Origin: Alphaproteobacteria bacterium
Lineage (GTDB): Bacteria; Pseudomonadota; Alphaproteobacteria; Micavibrionales; UBA1664
NCBI GenBank assembly: GCA_018969935.1
Contig: JAGWXJ010000003.1
Span: 1 to 35,674 of the forward strand
Length of the DNA stretch: 35,674 nucleotides
Reading direction: 5' to 3'
A program made the translations under genes and the position numbers. Within the stretch, counting starts at the first letter, position 1, and each line of letters begins with the position of its first letter. Positions 691 through 34,063 of the stretch are shown here, piece by piece. A model generated the notes under the pieces. That model ran no database searches and was not told the origin of the DNA. It saw only the letters and a list, made by a program, of their open reading frames with translations.

Positions 691-777
691 TGGTGGCCCC
701 GGCCGGAATCGAACCGGCACGCCCTTACGGACTCACGATTTTAAGTCGTGTGCGTCTACCAGTTCCGCCACGGGGCC
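691..777 (-). tRNA. tRNA-Leu (anticodon TAA)
   Basis: Reverse complement ggccccgtggcggaactggtagacgcacacgacttaaaatcgtgagtccgtaagggcgtgccggttcgattccggccggggccacca: acceptor stem pairs, TpsiC GGTTCGATTCC, long class II variable arm, encoded CCA, anticodon loop acTTAAAAt. Confidence 0.95.
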
Positions 778-29977: not shown

Positions 29978-29999
29978 CCGGATAGGTTAATTTTTTTCT

Positions 30000-30026
30000 T
30001 TGACAGGGGGTAGAAAATATTTGTAT
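30000..30026 (+). promoter_or_regulatory. candidate sigma70 promoter for the ODC operon leader
   Basis: TTGACA at 30000-30005, with TTGTAT at 30021-30026 as a weak -10 (15-nt spacing, shorter than ideal). Confidence 0.3.
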
Positions 30027-30038
30027 CACGCCCCTAAT

Positions 30039-30057
30039 TGACTCATAATGTGAGTCA
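30039..30057. repeat. inverted repeat TGACTCA-TAATG-TGAGTCA
   Basis: Perfect 7-nt arms, 5-nt spacer, read directly. Confidence 0.9.
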
Positions 30058-30099
30058 TCACGTACGTGCCTCTGGCCTGAAATAGTGGTTTATGTAACG

Positions 30100-30364
30100 G
30101 CGTAAAACTTGGGTTGAATTGGGGACCAAGCCCCACAACTTTGAATTAGGGTTTTATGTCATGATCACTTTTACAACTGCCTGGGGCCACACGCCCCCCA
30201 TAGGAATGGAAATTGGTTCTTCCACTCACCTGATTGGGCACGGCGTGCTTTCGCACGCATCGACCCGTCGCAACGGATAAACGGTCAAGGCTTTAGAACT
30301 TCCGGCTTTTAATATGGCCGGGGGAACGAAGCCCTATCCGCTTTCCTCGATGGAGATGCGCACG
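30100..30364 (+). ncRNA. structured 5' leader, putative speF-type riboregulator of ODC
   Basis: Long leader before ODC with stems TGGGG/CCCCA (30119-30136), GGGGC/GCCCC (30183-30197), GCGTGC-TTTC-GCACGC (30243-30258), CCGGC/GCCGG (near 30302-30321), and an embedded uORF. Boundaries approximate. Confidence 0.6.
30161..30280 (+). CDS. putative 39-aa leader peptide (uORF) upstream of ODC
   Basis: ATG...TAA reads MITFTTAWGHTPPIGMEIGSSTHLIGHGVLSHASTRRNG*; AGGG 9 nt upstream; not in the supplied ORF track because of its size. Confidence 0.55.
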   Translation: MITFTTAWGHTPPIGMEIGSSTHLIGHGVLSHASTRRNG

Positions 30365-31570
30365 ATGTCAAACATCATCACCCCCCAAAGCTTTGCCAAC
30401 CGCACGCCGCGCCAAGTGGCCCTGCCCCCTCATGCCTATACGGGCGAGGTATCGGACGTTGTGCGCCAGCTGGCCCCCGTCAACCCGCTGTACATCATGT
30501 GGCCGGAACGCATTGCCGAAGCGGCAAAACAATTCCTGACCCAATTCCCCGGCGAAACGGTTTACGCAACCAAATGCAACCCAGACAAAATCGCGATCCA
30601 GACCATGTATCGCGCTGGCGTCCGCGCATTTGATGTCGCCTCCATCGGCGAGGTCCGCCTCGTCCGCAAGCTGGCCCCCAAAGCCAAGCTGTACTTCATG
30701 CACACCATCAAGTCGCCCGAGGCGATTGCCGAGGCCTACAAGGTCCACGGCGTCCGCGCCTTCGTGCTCGACAGCATGGATGAGCTTTACAAGATCATGC
30801 GCGCAACCGAACTCGCTCAGGACCTCGAGCTGTTCGTGCGCATGGCCCTGCCGAAAAACAGCAAAGCCCAGATCGACTTCTCGACCAAATTCGGGGCCCT
30901 GCCCTACGATGCAGCAGACTTGCTTAAAGCCTGCCGCCCCGTAGCCTCGCGCCTTGGCCTCTGCCTGCACGTGGGCACCCAGTGCACCGACCCTGCCGCC
31001 TACAAGCGCGCAGTGAAAGTGGCGGCGCAAGTGCTCAAGGCATCCAAAGTATCCATCGACGTCCTCGACGTTGGCGGTGGCTTCCCCGTGGAATACCCCG
31101 GCTCCCAGCCCCTGCCCCCGTTCCAGGATTTCGTGGACACCATCACGAGCGCCCTCAAGGCCCAGAAGATGGATACCATCCCCCTCATGTGCGAACCGGG
31201 CCGCGCGCTCGTGGCCAACGCCGTATCCCTCGTGGTGCGCGTGGAAGGCCGCAAGGGCAACCTGCTGCACATCAACGACGGCACCTACGGCGGCCTCTTT
31301 GACGCGGGCGCCCAAGTGCGCGCGCGTTATGCCACCAAAGTCATCTCGCGTAACGGCACCGCCCGCCGCGAGCAGGATCTCGTCCCCTACCGTTTCGCAG
31401 GCCCTACCTGCGATTCCATCGACATGATGAAAGGGCCGTTCATGCTGCCCTCCGACATCGTGGCAGGCGACTGGATTGAAATTCAGACCATGGGCGCCTA
31501 TTCTCAGGCCCTGAGGTCGAACTTCAACGATTTCGGTCACGCCGACCAAATCGTGATGAAAAAGATTTAA
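30365..31570 (+). CDS. ornithine decarboxylase (PLP fold III type)
   Basis: YATKCNPDKIAIQTMYRAGVRAFDVASIGEV (PLP Lys motif), DVLDVGGGFPVEYPG, CEPGRALVA, FAGPTCDSIDMM; SD GGAG 9 nt before the ATG at 30365. Upstream in-frame ATGs at 30314, 30350 and 30356. Confidence 0.93.
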   Translation: MSNIITPQSFANRTPRQVALPPHAYTGEVSDVVRQLAPVNPLYIMWPERIAEAAKQFLTQFPGETVYATKCNPDKIAIQTMYRAGVRAFDVASIGEVRLVRKLAPKAKLYFMHTIKSPEAIAEAYKVHGVRAFVLDSMDELYKIMRATELAQDLELFVRMALPKNSKAQIDFSTKFGALPYDAADLLKACRPVASRLGLCLHVGTQCTDPAAYKRAVKVAAQVLKASKVSIDVLDVGGGFPVEYPGSQPLPPFQDFVDTITSALKAQKMDTIPLMCEPGRALVANAVSLVVRVEGRKGNLLHINDGTYGGLFDAGAQVRARYATKVISRNGTARREQDLVPYRFAGPTCDSIDMMKGPFMLPSDIVAGDWIEIQTMGAYSQALRSNFNDFGHADQIVMKKI

Positions 31571-31580
31571 GGAGAAAAAT

Positions 31581-32807
31581 ATGGATAGCGTACTGATTAT
31601 CGGCGCCGGCGGCGCAGGTTCGGTTGTGGCCAAAAAATGCGCCATGAACCCCGATGTGTTCAAGAAAATCCACTTGGCGTCCCGTACGCTCTCGAAGTGC
31701 GAGGCCATCGCGCGCGAGTGCAAAAGCACGGTCACGACCTCGCAGGTGGACGCCGATGACACGCAACAGGTCATCAAGCTCATCGAAAAGGTGAAGCCCG
31801 ATCTGCTCATCAACATGGCCCTGCCGTATCAGGACCTCACGATCATGGATGCGTGCTTGGCAACAGGCGTCCACTACATGGACACCGCCAACTACGAACC
31901 CAAGGACGAAGCCAAGTTTTCCTACAAATGGCAGTGGCCCTACCACGACAAGTTCAAGGAAAAAGGCATCATGGGCGTGCTCGGCTGCGGCTTTGACCCC
32001 GGCATGTCCAACATCTACTGCGCCTACGCTCAAAACCAGCTGTTCGATGAAATCCATACCATCGATATCGTCGACTGCAACGCAGGTGACCACGGCCACG
32101 CCTTTGCCACCAACTTCAACCCCGAAATCAACATCCGCGAGGTAACCCAACGCGGCAAATACTGGAAAGACGGCCAGTGGATTGAAATTGATCCGCTCTC
32201 CATCGCCTGCATGGTCGATTACCCTGAAGTCGGCCCCAAAAAGTCTTACCTGATTTATCACGAGGAAGAAGAGTCTCTGGTCAAGAACATCCGTGGCCTC
32301 AAGCAAATCCGCTTCTGGATGACCTTCTCGGATAACTACATCAAGCACCTCGATGTCCTGCAAAACGTGGGCATGACCCGCATCGACCCCGTTATTTACA
32401 ACGGCGTCGAAATCATCCCGCTGCAGTTCCTCAAGGCCCTGCTGCCCGAGCCGTCATCCTTGGCTGAAAACTACACGGGCAAAACCTCCATCGGTTGCAT
32501 CTTCGAAGGCACCAAAGGCGGTAAACCCGTTAAAAAGTTCATCTACAACGTCTGCGACCACGCCAAAACGAACACCGAACTGGGCGCACAGGCCGTGTCC
32601 TACACCACGGGCGTACCAGCAGTCACGGGCGCGATGATGATGTTCAAAGGCATCTGGAAGGGTGCGGGCGTGTTCAACGTAGAACAACTGCCGCCCGAGC
32701 CGTTCATGGAAGAAGTGGCCAAACAAGGCCTGCCGTGGCACGTCAAGGACCTCGACGCCAAAACAGAAGCCGAACTCAAAGGCGCAAAAGAACTCAAAGC
32801 CGCATAA
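31581..32807 (+). CDS. carboxynorspermidine/carboxyspermidine dehydrogenase (saccharopine dehydrogenase family)
   Basis: MDSVLIIGAGGAGSVVAKKCAMNPDVFKKIHLASRTLSKCEAI, GVLGCGFDPGMSNIYCAYAQ; SD aaggag; sits between ODC and nspC. Confidence 0.92.
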   Translation: MDSVLIIGAGGAGSVVAKKCAMNPDVFKKIHLASRTLSKCEAIARECKSTVTTSQVDADDTQQVIKLIEKVKPDLLINMALPYQDLTIMDACLATGVHYMDTANYEPKDEAKFSYKWQWPYHDKFKEKGIMGVLGCGFDPGMSNIYCAYAQNQLFDEIHTIDIVDCNAGDHGHAFATNFNPEINIREVTQRGKYWKDGQWIEIDPLSIACMVDYPEVGPKKSYLIYHEEEESLVKNIRGLKQIRFWMTFSDNYIKHLDVLQNVGMTRIDPVIYNGVEIIPLQFLKALLPEPSSLAENYTGKTSIGCIFEGTKGGKPVKKFIYNVCDHAKTNTELGAQAVSYTTGVPAVTGAMMMFKGIWKGAGVFNVEQLPPEPFMEEVAKQGLPWHVKDLDAKTEAELKGAKELKAA

Positions 32808-32812
32808 GCAAA

Positions 32813-32839
32813 AATCCCCGCTACGGCGGGGATTTTTTT
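32813..32839 (+). terminator. intrinsic terminator-like hairpin inside the polyamine operon
   Basis: AATCCCCGC-TACG-GCGGGGATT followed by a T tract (ttttttt), perfect 9-bp stem. Confidence 0.9.
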
Positions 32840-34063
32840 ATGGCGCAAGCCCTAACCCCGCACTATCTTTTCAACATGAAAAACGCATCCCGCCTGCCAC
32901 TCGCAACCATGCACACACCCGCCTATGTCGCAGATGTGGCAGCCATCCGCCAGAACCTCGAACGTGCTGACAAAATCCGCAAAGGCGCTGGCTGCAAGGT
33001 GCTGCTGGCCACCAAGGCGTTTTCGTTTACCGCCCTCTTTCCCATGATGCGCGACTATCTGGACGGCACGACCGCCAGCGGCCTCTACGAAGCCAAAATG
33101 GGCGCTGATTACTTCGGCAAGGAAATCCACGTCTACGCCCCCGCCTACACCGATGCCGAACTGGAAGGATTGGCAAAGCTGACCGACCACATCTACGTGA
33201 ACTCCCCATCCCAGCTCGCACGCTACCTGCCCATCCTGAAGGGCAAGAAAATCGGCATCCGCATCAACCCCGAATATTCGCTCAGCACCGTCGGCGGCGA
33301 GCTTTACGACCCCTGCGCCCCCTGCTCGCGCTTCGGCACCCGCAAGGACCAGCTGGATGATTTGCCGTGGGAACACATCCACACCCTCCATGCCCACGTC
33401 CTGTGCGAAAGCCGTACCGCCGCGGGCACTATCGGCCTCATCGACACCCTCGATGAAAAATTCGGCGCCTACGTTAAACGCGTTAAAGCCGTGAACTTGG
33501 GTGGCGGGCACTTCTTCAACGATGCCGGTTTTGAAATCGAGCCACTAATCGCCCGCATCAAAGCCTTCCGCGAAAAATACGGCGTCGAAGTCATCCTCGA
33601 ACCCGGCGGTACGCTTGTGTATGATGCGGGTTATCTGGTTACATCCGTCATCGATGTCCACAAAAACGGCGATACGCAAATCGCCATCCTCGACAGCTCG
33701 GCTTCCTGCCACATGCCCGACATCATCGAAACCAACGGCGAATTCACGCCAGAAATTGTCGGCGCAACCCGCGACCTGATGGATGGCGCATACCCGCACC
33801 ACTACCTCATGGGCGGCAAAACCTGCATGACGGGCGACTTCATCGCAACCGCCTACGCCTTCAGGGAACCACTCAAAATCGGCGATAAAGTCGTCTTTTG
33901 CGACCAGATGCAATACAGCTTCGTCAAGGACACCACCTTCAACGGCACCCCGCTGCCCGATATGGCTGTCCTGCACGAAGACGGCCGCTACGAAGTAGTC
34001 CAGACTTACGGTTACGAAGACTTCCTCCGCCGCGTCGGCGGCCCCGTCAAAATATCAATGTAA
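32840..34063 (+). CDS. nspC: carboxynorspermidine decarboxylase
   Basis: TPAYVADVAAIRQNLERADKIRKGAGCKVLLATKAFSF, RINPEYS, HAHVLCE, VNLGGGHFFN, LEPGGTLV, YLMGGKTCMTGDFI. Start ambiguous between ATG 32840 and ATG 32876. Confidence 0.93.
   Translation: MAQALTPHYLFNMKNASRLPLATMHTPAYVADVAAIRQNLERADKIRKGAGCKVLLATKAFSFTALFPMMRDYLDGTTASGLYEAKMGADYFGKEIHVYAPAYTDAELEGLAKLTDHIYVNSPSQLARYLPILKGKKIGIRINPEYSLSTVGGELYDPCAPCSRFGTRKDQLDDLPWEHIHTLHAHVLCESRTAAGTIGLIDTLDEKFGAYVKRVKAVNLGGGHFFNDAGFEIEPLIARIKAFREKYGVEVILEPGGTLVYDAGYLVTSVIDVHKNGDTQIAILDSSASCHMPDIIETNGEFTPEIVGATRDLMDGAYPHHYLMGGKTCMTGDFIATAYAFREPLKIGDKVVFCDQMQYSFVKDTTFNGTPLPDMAVLHEDGRYEVVQTYGYEDFLRRVGGPVKISM

Follow-up and report, generated by a model that had tools for sequence, protein, structure and literature searches.

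The window analyzed here, a stretch of 35,674 nucleotides of alphaproteobacterial DNA, carries an ornithine decarboxylase (ODC) gene preceded by a leader in which a short upstream open reading frame (uORF) is embedded. The features of this locus, with the evidence for each, are as follows.

30044-30049, plus strand: candidate -10 box CATAAT, 20 nt before ACGTG, with a weak -35 box TTGTAT (30021-30026) and a 17-nt spacer
30056-30102, plus strand: 5' domain of the leader RNA, ...ACGTACGTGCCTCTGGCC...GGTTTATGTAACGGCG (match of covariance model R1; alignment)
30100-30159, plus strand: predicted helix sequestering the Shine-Dalgarno (SD) sequence, 30100-30110 (GCGUAAAACUU) with 30149-30159 (GGGUUUUAUGU) (duplex energies; predicted fold)
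30148-30151, plus strand: Shine-Dalgarno sequence AGGG (sequence and leader alignment)
30161-30280, plus strand: uORF, 39 codons and TAA (homologous AUG is the ODC start in other genomes; class-level frame constraint)
30183-30197, plus strand: hairpin GGGGC-CACAC-GCCCC inside the uORF (codons W-G-H-T-P), present in uORF and direct-start leaders
30289-30333, plus strand: hairpin between the uORF stop and the ODC ribosome-binding site (RBS) (predicted fold; comparison with L134)
30365-31570, plus strand: ornithine (lysine/ornithine-type) decarboxylase, ODC (Pfam PF02784/PF00278)
31581-32807, plus strand: carboxynorspermidine synthase-like gene (NF043000, E 2.7e-126, under the curated cut-off; PF16653/PF03435)
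32837-34063, plus strand: carboxynorspermidine decarboxylase (nspC-like) gene (TIGR01047, E 1.8e-116, slightly under the cut-off)

The ODC is of the Orn/DAP/Arg-type decarboxylase family and its best PDB match is the lysine/ornithine decarboxylase 2plj (E 1e-43). The carboxynorspermidine synthase- and decarboxylase-like genes probably share an operon with it, an arrangement that looks like an alternative-spermidine operon. A divergent carbon-nitrogen hydrolase gene (PF00795; 29033-29977, minus strand) has the intergenic region in common with the ODC promoter. A generic promoter scan returned no site at its threshold, the candidate CATAAT included; across the leaders, TATAAT-like boxes cluster 15-20 nt ahead of ACGTG.

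The uORF runs from the ATG at 30161 to the TAA ending at 30280 and encodes MITFTTAWGHTPPIGMEIGSSTHLIGHGVLSHASTRRNG, the AGGG lies 9 nt ahead of its ATG, and 84 nt separate its stop from the ODC ATG at 30365, which has GGAG as its own SD. These coordinates reproduce in full the original prediction of an intact 39-codon uORF with AGGG at SD distance in the ODC leader. Two other possible starts were absent from that prediction: an ATG at 30156 (ATG TCA TGA), two codons long and nearer to the AGGG than the uORF ATG, and a TTG at 30119 in the uORF frame, which would lengthen the uORF to 53 codons. The former lies 5 nt upstream of the uORF ATG and overlaps the uORF start (30156-30164); G001, a genome of the same genus, has ATG TAG there. 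A further ATG at 30314, in the ODC frame, is out of frame in the closest relative, L134, whose ODC matches that of the window at 85.5% and whose uORF likewise has 39 codons and keeps the frame. By its length alone a uORF of 39 codons is within chance; what goes beyond chance, as judged from homologous leaders, is the start codon they share at this position together with the frame constraint that follows it.

A conserved leader RNA occupies approximately 30056-30163, just ahead of the uORF, and its 5' domain includes a stem between GGCC (30074-30077) and GGUU (30087-30090). Leaders of ODC homologues within the order have in common CACGTG...AACGRCG...AAGGG...ATG, and in the leader alignment the AGGG of the uORF is equivalent to AAAGGG/GAGAGGG in other leaders. 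A DNA search among 55 relatives found only G001, with a match ending within the uORF; G001 retains the 5' portion of the leader, and its uORF begins MNTYTSAWGHTPPI with several third-position silent changes and then diverges, having 28 codons in all. When GTDB genomes were scanned by pattern, at least 120 stretches were obtained, 80 of them among the matches listed, where Azospirillum, Magnetospirillum, Parvibaculum, Skermanella and Micavibrio appear; the candidate from Pedosphaera (L151) was discarded as a chance pattern match.

The covariance model R1 was built from 28 leaders, none of them taken from the window's order. R1 matches the window at 30056-30158 (E 5.7e-5), and across the whole 1.85-Mb genome of the window the ODC leader is its only match (E 5.9e-4). 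Nearly all tested leaders of the window's order are matched as well, and R1 matches were found in 64 of 387 alphaproteobacterial genomes, with up to four per genome. RNAalifold, applied to a 72-leader MAFFT alignment, yielded 3 pairs only, because variable hairpins defeat it.

R1 also recognized five of the six loci of the speF family (RF00518), with E values from 1e-3 to 8e-3 (L033, L034, L036, L037 and L038), L035 giving just 0.72. In these same Rhizobiales ODC leaders (L033-L038) αr45 (RF02347) directly adjoins RF00518, and R1 covers the core common to both; moreover, L248 is matched by R1 (E 4e-4) and by RF02347 (E 5.5e-4). The RF00518 covariance model gave no match in the window at its gathering score, nor on 29980-30420 at E up to 10, the RF02347 model gave none on the window leader at E up to 10, and neither reaches the rest of the window leader's branch; a tRNA gene (694-777, minus strand) is the sole Rfam match in the window. 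We define here an αr45-speF leader superfamily, whose members are recognized by an independent model that recognizes known αr45-speF leaders and stand upstream of a polyamine biosynthesis gene. The window leader is recognized by R1 and precedes ODC and the carboxynorspermidine synthase- and decarboxylase-like genes, and on this comparison it is best described as a divergent member, a variant of the known αr45-speF leader family. Of the original prediction, this much was borne out: the uORF is intact and probably translated, its position is conserved, and the alphaproteobacterial ODC leader that holds it is a homologue of the speF leader.

The element ends on a start codon. In a non-redundant set of 73 leaders this AUG begins a uORF 47 times and the ODC 26 times, the latter count including long ORFs that run off the fetched stretch; a script called as start the first ATG following an SD-like sequence, and a few calls were corrected by hand. 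On a tree of the ODCs of 27 order members, four changes between uORF and direct start are needed, at least three of them forced by well-supported branches. In L021 the ORF is unbroken into ODC, and the resulting N-terminal extension is homologous to the uORF peptide of L014 and L015 (40% identity). Since direct-start genomes can produce ODC only by initiating at the element AUG, the homologous codon of the window is likely to initiate as well; the comparison marks the element-borne AUG as a true translation start, and the window uORF is probably translated. Looking for frameshifts or stops in homologous leaders, the refuting condition named in the original prediction, does not refute the uORF; it reveals that uORFs and direct ODC starts replace one another.

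Constraint on the reading frame was assessed over 28 disjoint uORF pairs, in which changes at the three codon positions numbered 100/101/170 and pN/pS was 0.50 in frame vs 1.28 and 1.15 when the frame was shifted; pairs with greater divergence and gaps contribute most of this signal. The synonymous-biased substitution suggested as a check on the original prediction is present across the pairs; the window-L134 pair alone gave 1/2/1 and is uninformative, showing no purifying selection on the C-terminus of the window uORF. Whether the AUG opens a uORF or ODC, a G-rich/C-rich hairpin comes after it (mean score 7.6 vs 4.0 for shuffles); where it opens a uORF, the last G of the hairpin's G-run falls on codon position 2 in 21 of 29 leaders, mostly at spacings of 22, 25 or 28, and in 14 of 21 after clustering of similar sequences. 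By these measures the uORFs as a class are under frame constraint, which together with the in-frame hairpin spacing makes translation likely. The uORF C-termini recur by clade (L145, L108, L095, L096, L082, L087 and their relatives) as DPSSL-stop, NPLSS, QSSMGGLSA-stop and KSM-stop, several of them with a Ser-Ser or Ser-Met core.

These data bear on an explanation in which only the RNA matters, that is, the element and its hairpins, and initiation at 30161 has no regulatory role. Conservation is indeed strongest at the RNA level, the C-terminus of the window uORF is not demonstrably constrained, and no ATG is recognized at the uORF-start position in the leaders of L018 and L125. However, spacings in multiples of three and the third-position bias of the uORF leaders run against it, as does the fact that the same AUG starts ODC elsewhere and must initiate there; we consider an incidental uORF unlikely.

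As for how the start codon might be controlled, the strand after AACGRCG is predicted to pair with the SD-AUG strand in a helix that encloses a hairpin at 30113-30139, and 30149-30164 is occluded in the predicted fold. Over the 73 leaders the own duplexes averaged -15.3 vs -12.1 kcal/mol for swapped ones, made with partner strands from dissimilar leaders, and were better in 60, relatedness inflating the p-value (8e-10). In a covariation test within A2 the helices did not rise above shuffles, and this test is not counted as support. Gating of the SD of the window uORF is thus suggested by modelled pairing. Farther downstream, both-sided changes in L134 preserve the pairing of the hairpin at 30289-30333; the predicted occlusion of the ODC RBS is not clearly retained in L134. 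No intrinsic terminator was found in the window, and intrinsic terminators were rejected as a general relay, terminator-like sites occurring in just 6 of 73 leaders; in a few relatives a terminator-like hairpin with a U-run lies inside the uORF (L006, L014, L015) or inside the fused ODC coding region (L021). At least five U follow the strand matching the 5' end in 40 of 73 leaders, resembling the αr45 terminator, and the window is without them.

Regarding the signal, the genes after the element at the 80 scan loci among the matches listed are ODC in 62, SpeD/SpeE in 3 and homospermidine synthase in 1, while in 12 the contig breaks off and the last two are a chance match and a GGACT-family gene; further copies of the element precede homospermidine synthase and speD-speE. 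At L125, where the usual position lacks an ATG, the gene behind the element is gamma-glutamyl cyclotransferase-like (GGACT, PF06094). Since neither homospermidine synthase nor speD-speE makes use of ornithine, the presence of the element ahead of these genes too fits polyamine status better than ornithine, and polyamine status is the signal most likely read by the leader.

The reading that we favor, and hold to be more likely than not, is an RNA-gated switch with a translated uORF that relays to ODC, the signal most likely being polyamine status. It builds on what the leaders display when compared, namely homology of the element, a shared start codon, repeated switching between uORF and direct start and class-level frame constraint. 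The ODC mRNA would begin with a divergent αr45-speF leader RNA, in which the strand after the conserved 5' domain would pair with, and hide, the SD and AUG with which the element closes. Since this AUG is the ODC start in many relatives, the element would directly gate ODC translation there; in the window it starts the 39-codon uORF, so that the element would gate uORF translation. Ribosomes on the uORF would then open the downstream structure around the ODC RBS and so pass the signal on to ODC, and where a lineage has terminators within its uORF the relay may operate by suppressing termination.

The original prediction had proposed an arrest or attenuator peptide analogous to SpeFL, from the position of the uORF, its His residues and the Arg-Arg before the stop. 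On a SpeFL-like reading, residues of the nascent uORF peptide would themselves bind ornithine or else a polyamine, whereupon the ribosome would stall and ODC be induced. The uORF does sit between promoter and ODC, the uORFs are as a class under frame constraint, and C-termini such as DPSSL-stop, NPLSS, QSSMGG and [MV]W-stop recur clade-wise, but the window shares no C-terminal motif with those clades. Its Arg-Arg is Arg-Leu in L134, the shorter uORF of G001 ends differently, and no conserved sensor or arrest residues of SpeFL type were found when L134 and G001 were compared. The conserved AWGHTPPI stretch coincides with the GGGGC...GCCCC RNA hairpin, which is likewise found where the same AUG starts ODC; several uORFs have just 8-17 codons, and the element is unchanged where the uORF is absent and also precedes genes not using ornithine. 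An arrest peptide sensing ornithine through its own sequence is not supported, and we regard this explanation as improbable; of the proposal that the uORF is translated and senses ornithine or polyamines, probable translation stands, on the conserved start and the frame constraint, whereas ornithine sensing by the peptide does not.

Least probable of all is a leader that acts mainly by attenuating transcription, liberating an αr45-type sRNA and regulating read-through into ODC, since the GGGC and U-run that end Rhizobiales αr45 (RF02347) directly ahead of RF00518, the existence of αr45 as a separate RNA in Bartonella (PMC7717549) and the U-runs of the 40 leaders are offset by the window itself, which has AAAACUUGG at the αr45-end position, no U-run and no terminator-like site.

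Compared with known systems, the RNA-gated switch resembles the spermidine riboswitch in being an RNA leader on spermidine-pathway genes; the latter is a SAM-I variant unrelated in sequence to the window leader, and the paper describing it mentions neither speF nor alphaproteobacteria (PMC10853860). The SpeFL/orf34 leader of gammaproteobacterial speF likewise has a short ORF before ODC and a structured RNA between uORF and ODC RBS, but no peptide sequence is shared (comparison by eye showed no SpeFL resemblance, in agreement with the original prediction), and in the window it is an upstream RNA element that owns the start site. The gammaproteobacterial speF product is an ODC of a different fold family from that of the window. 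Translation of the leader ORF is required for ODC expression in that system (PMC6386406).

The closest likeness is to the αr45-speF leaders of Rhizobiales, which share with the window the CGCACGUGCC...GCAACGACG core, a hairpin and then an SD-like AGAGG upstream of ODC. Unlike RF02347 and RF00518, the element of the window branch ends at an ATG opening ODC or a uORF, and the window, with GCGUAAAACUUGGG, is without the terminal GGGC and U-run of RF02347 or any other terminator-like site. A UUG 9-10 nt after AGAGG in the RF00518 leaders was considered as a candidate start; its position is conserved by eye and its frame is not (L037 would have a stop after 3 codons). The αr45 end resembles an attenuator in the L033-L038 ODC leaders, and the αr45 sRNA may accordingly be a prematurely ended ODC leader. 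Function and ligand of the speF leader have been lacking since 2005: with the A. tumefaciens RNA, no binding was seen of ornithine, lysine, putrescine, cadaverine, spermidine or diaminopimelate, and no ligand was found (PMC1273637); αr45 is catalogued as an uncharacterised sRNA, and a literature search returned nothing on uORFs in alphaproteobacterial speF leaders. We put forward, tentatively and with less confidence than the switch itself, that αr45, speF and the window branch form a single class of alphaproteobacterial regulatory RNAs, which read polyamine status and gate a start codon of their own, whose driven product (enzyme, N-terminal extension or relay uORF) evolution repeatedly swaps across ODC, homospermidine synthase and speD-speE. 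Such a one-leader view narrows the likely signal to polyamines, and a single leader that carries its own start codon and recurs in many families of alphaproteobacteria and at three polyamine steps offers a switch that can be tested at its SD helix, its uORF start and its relay.
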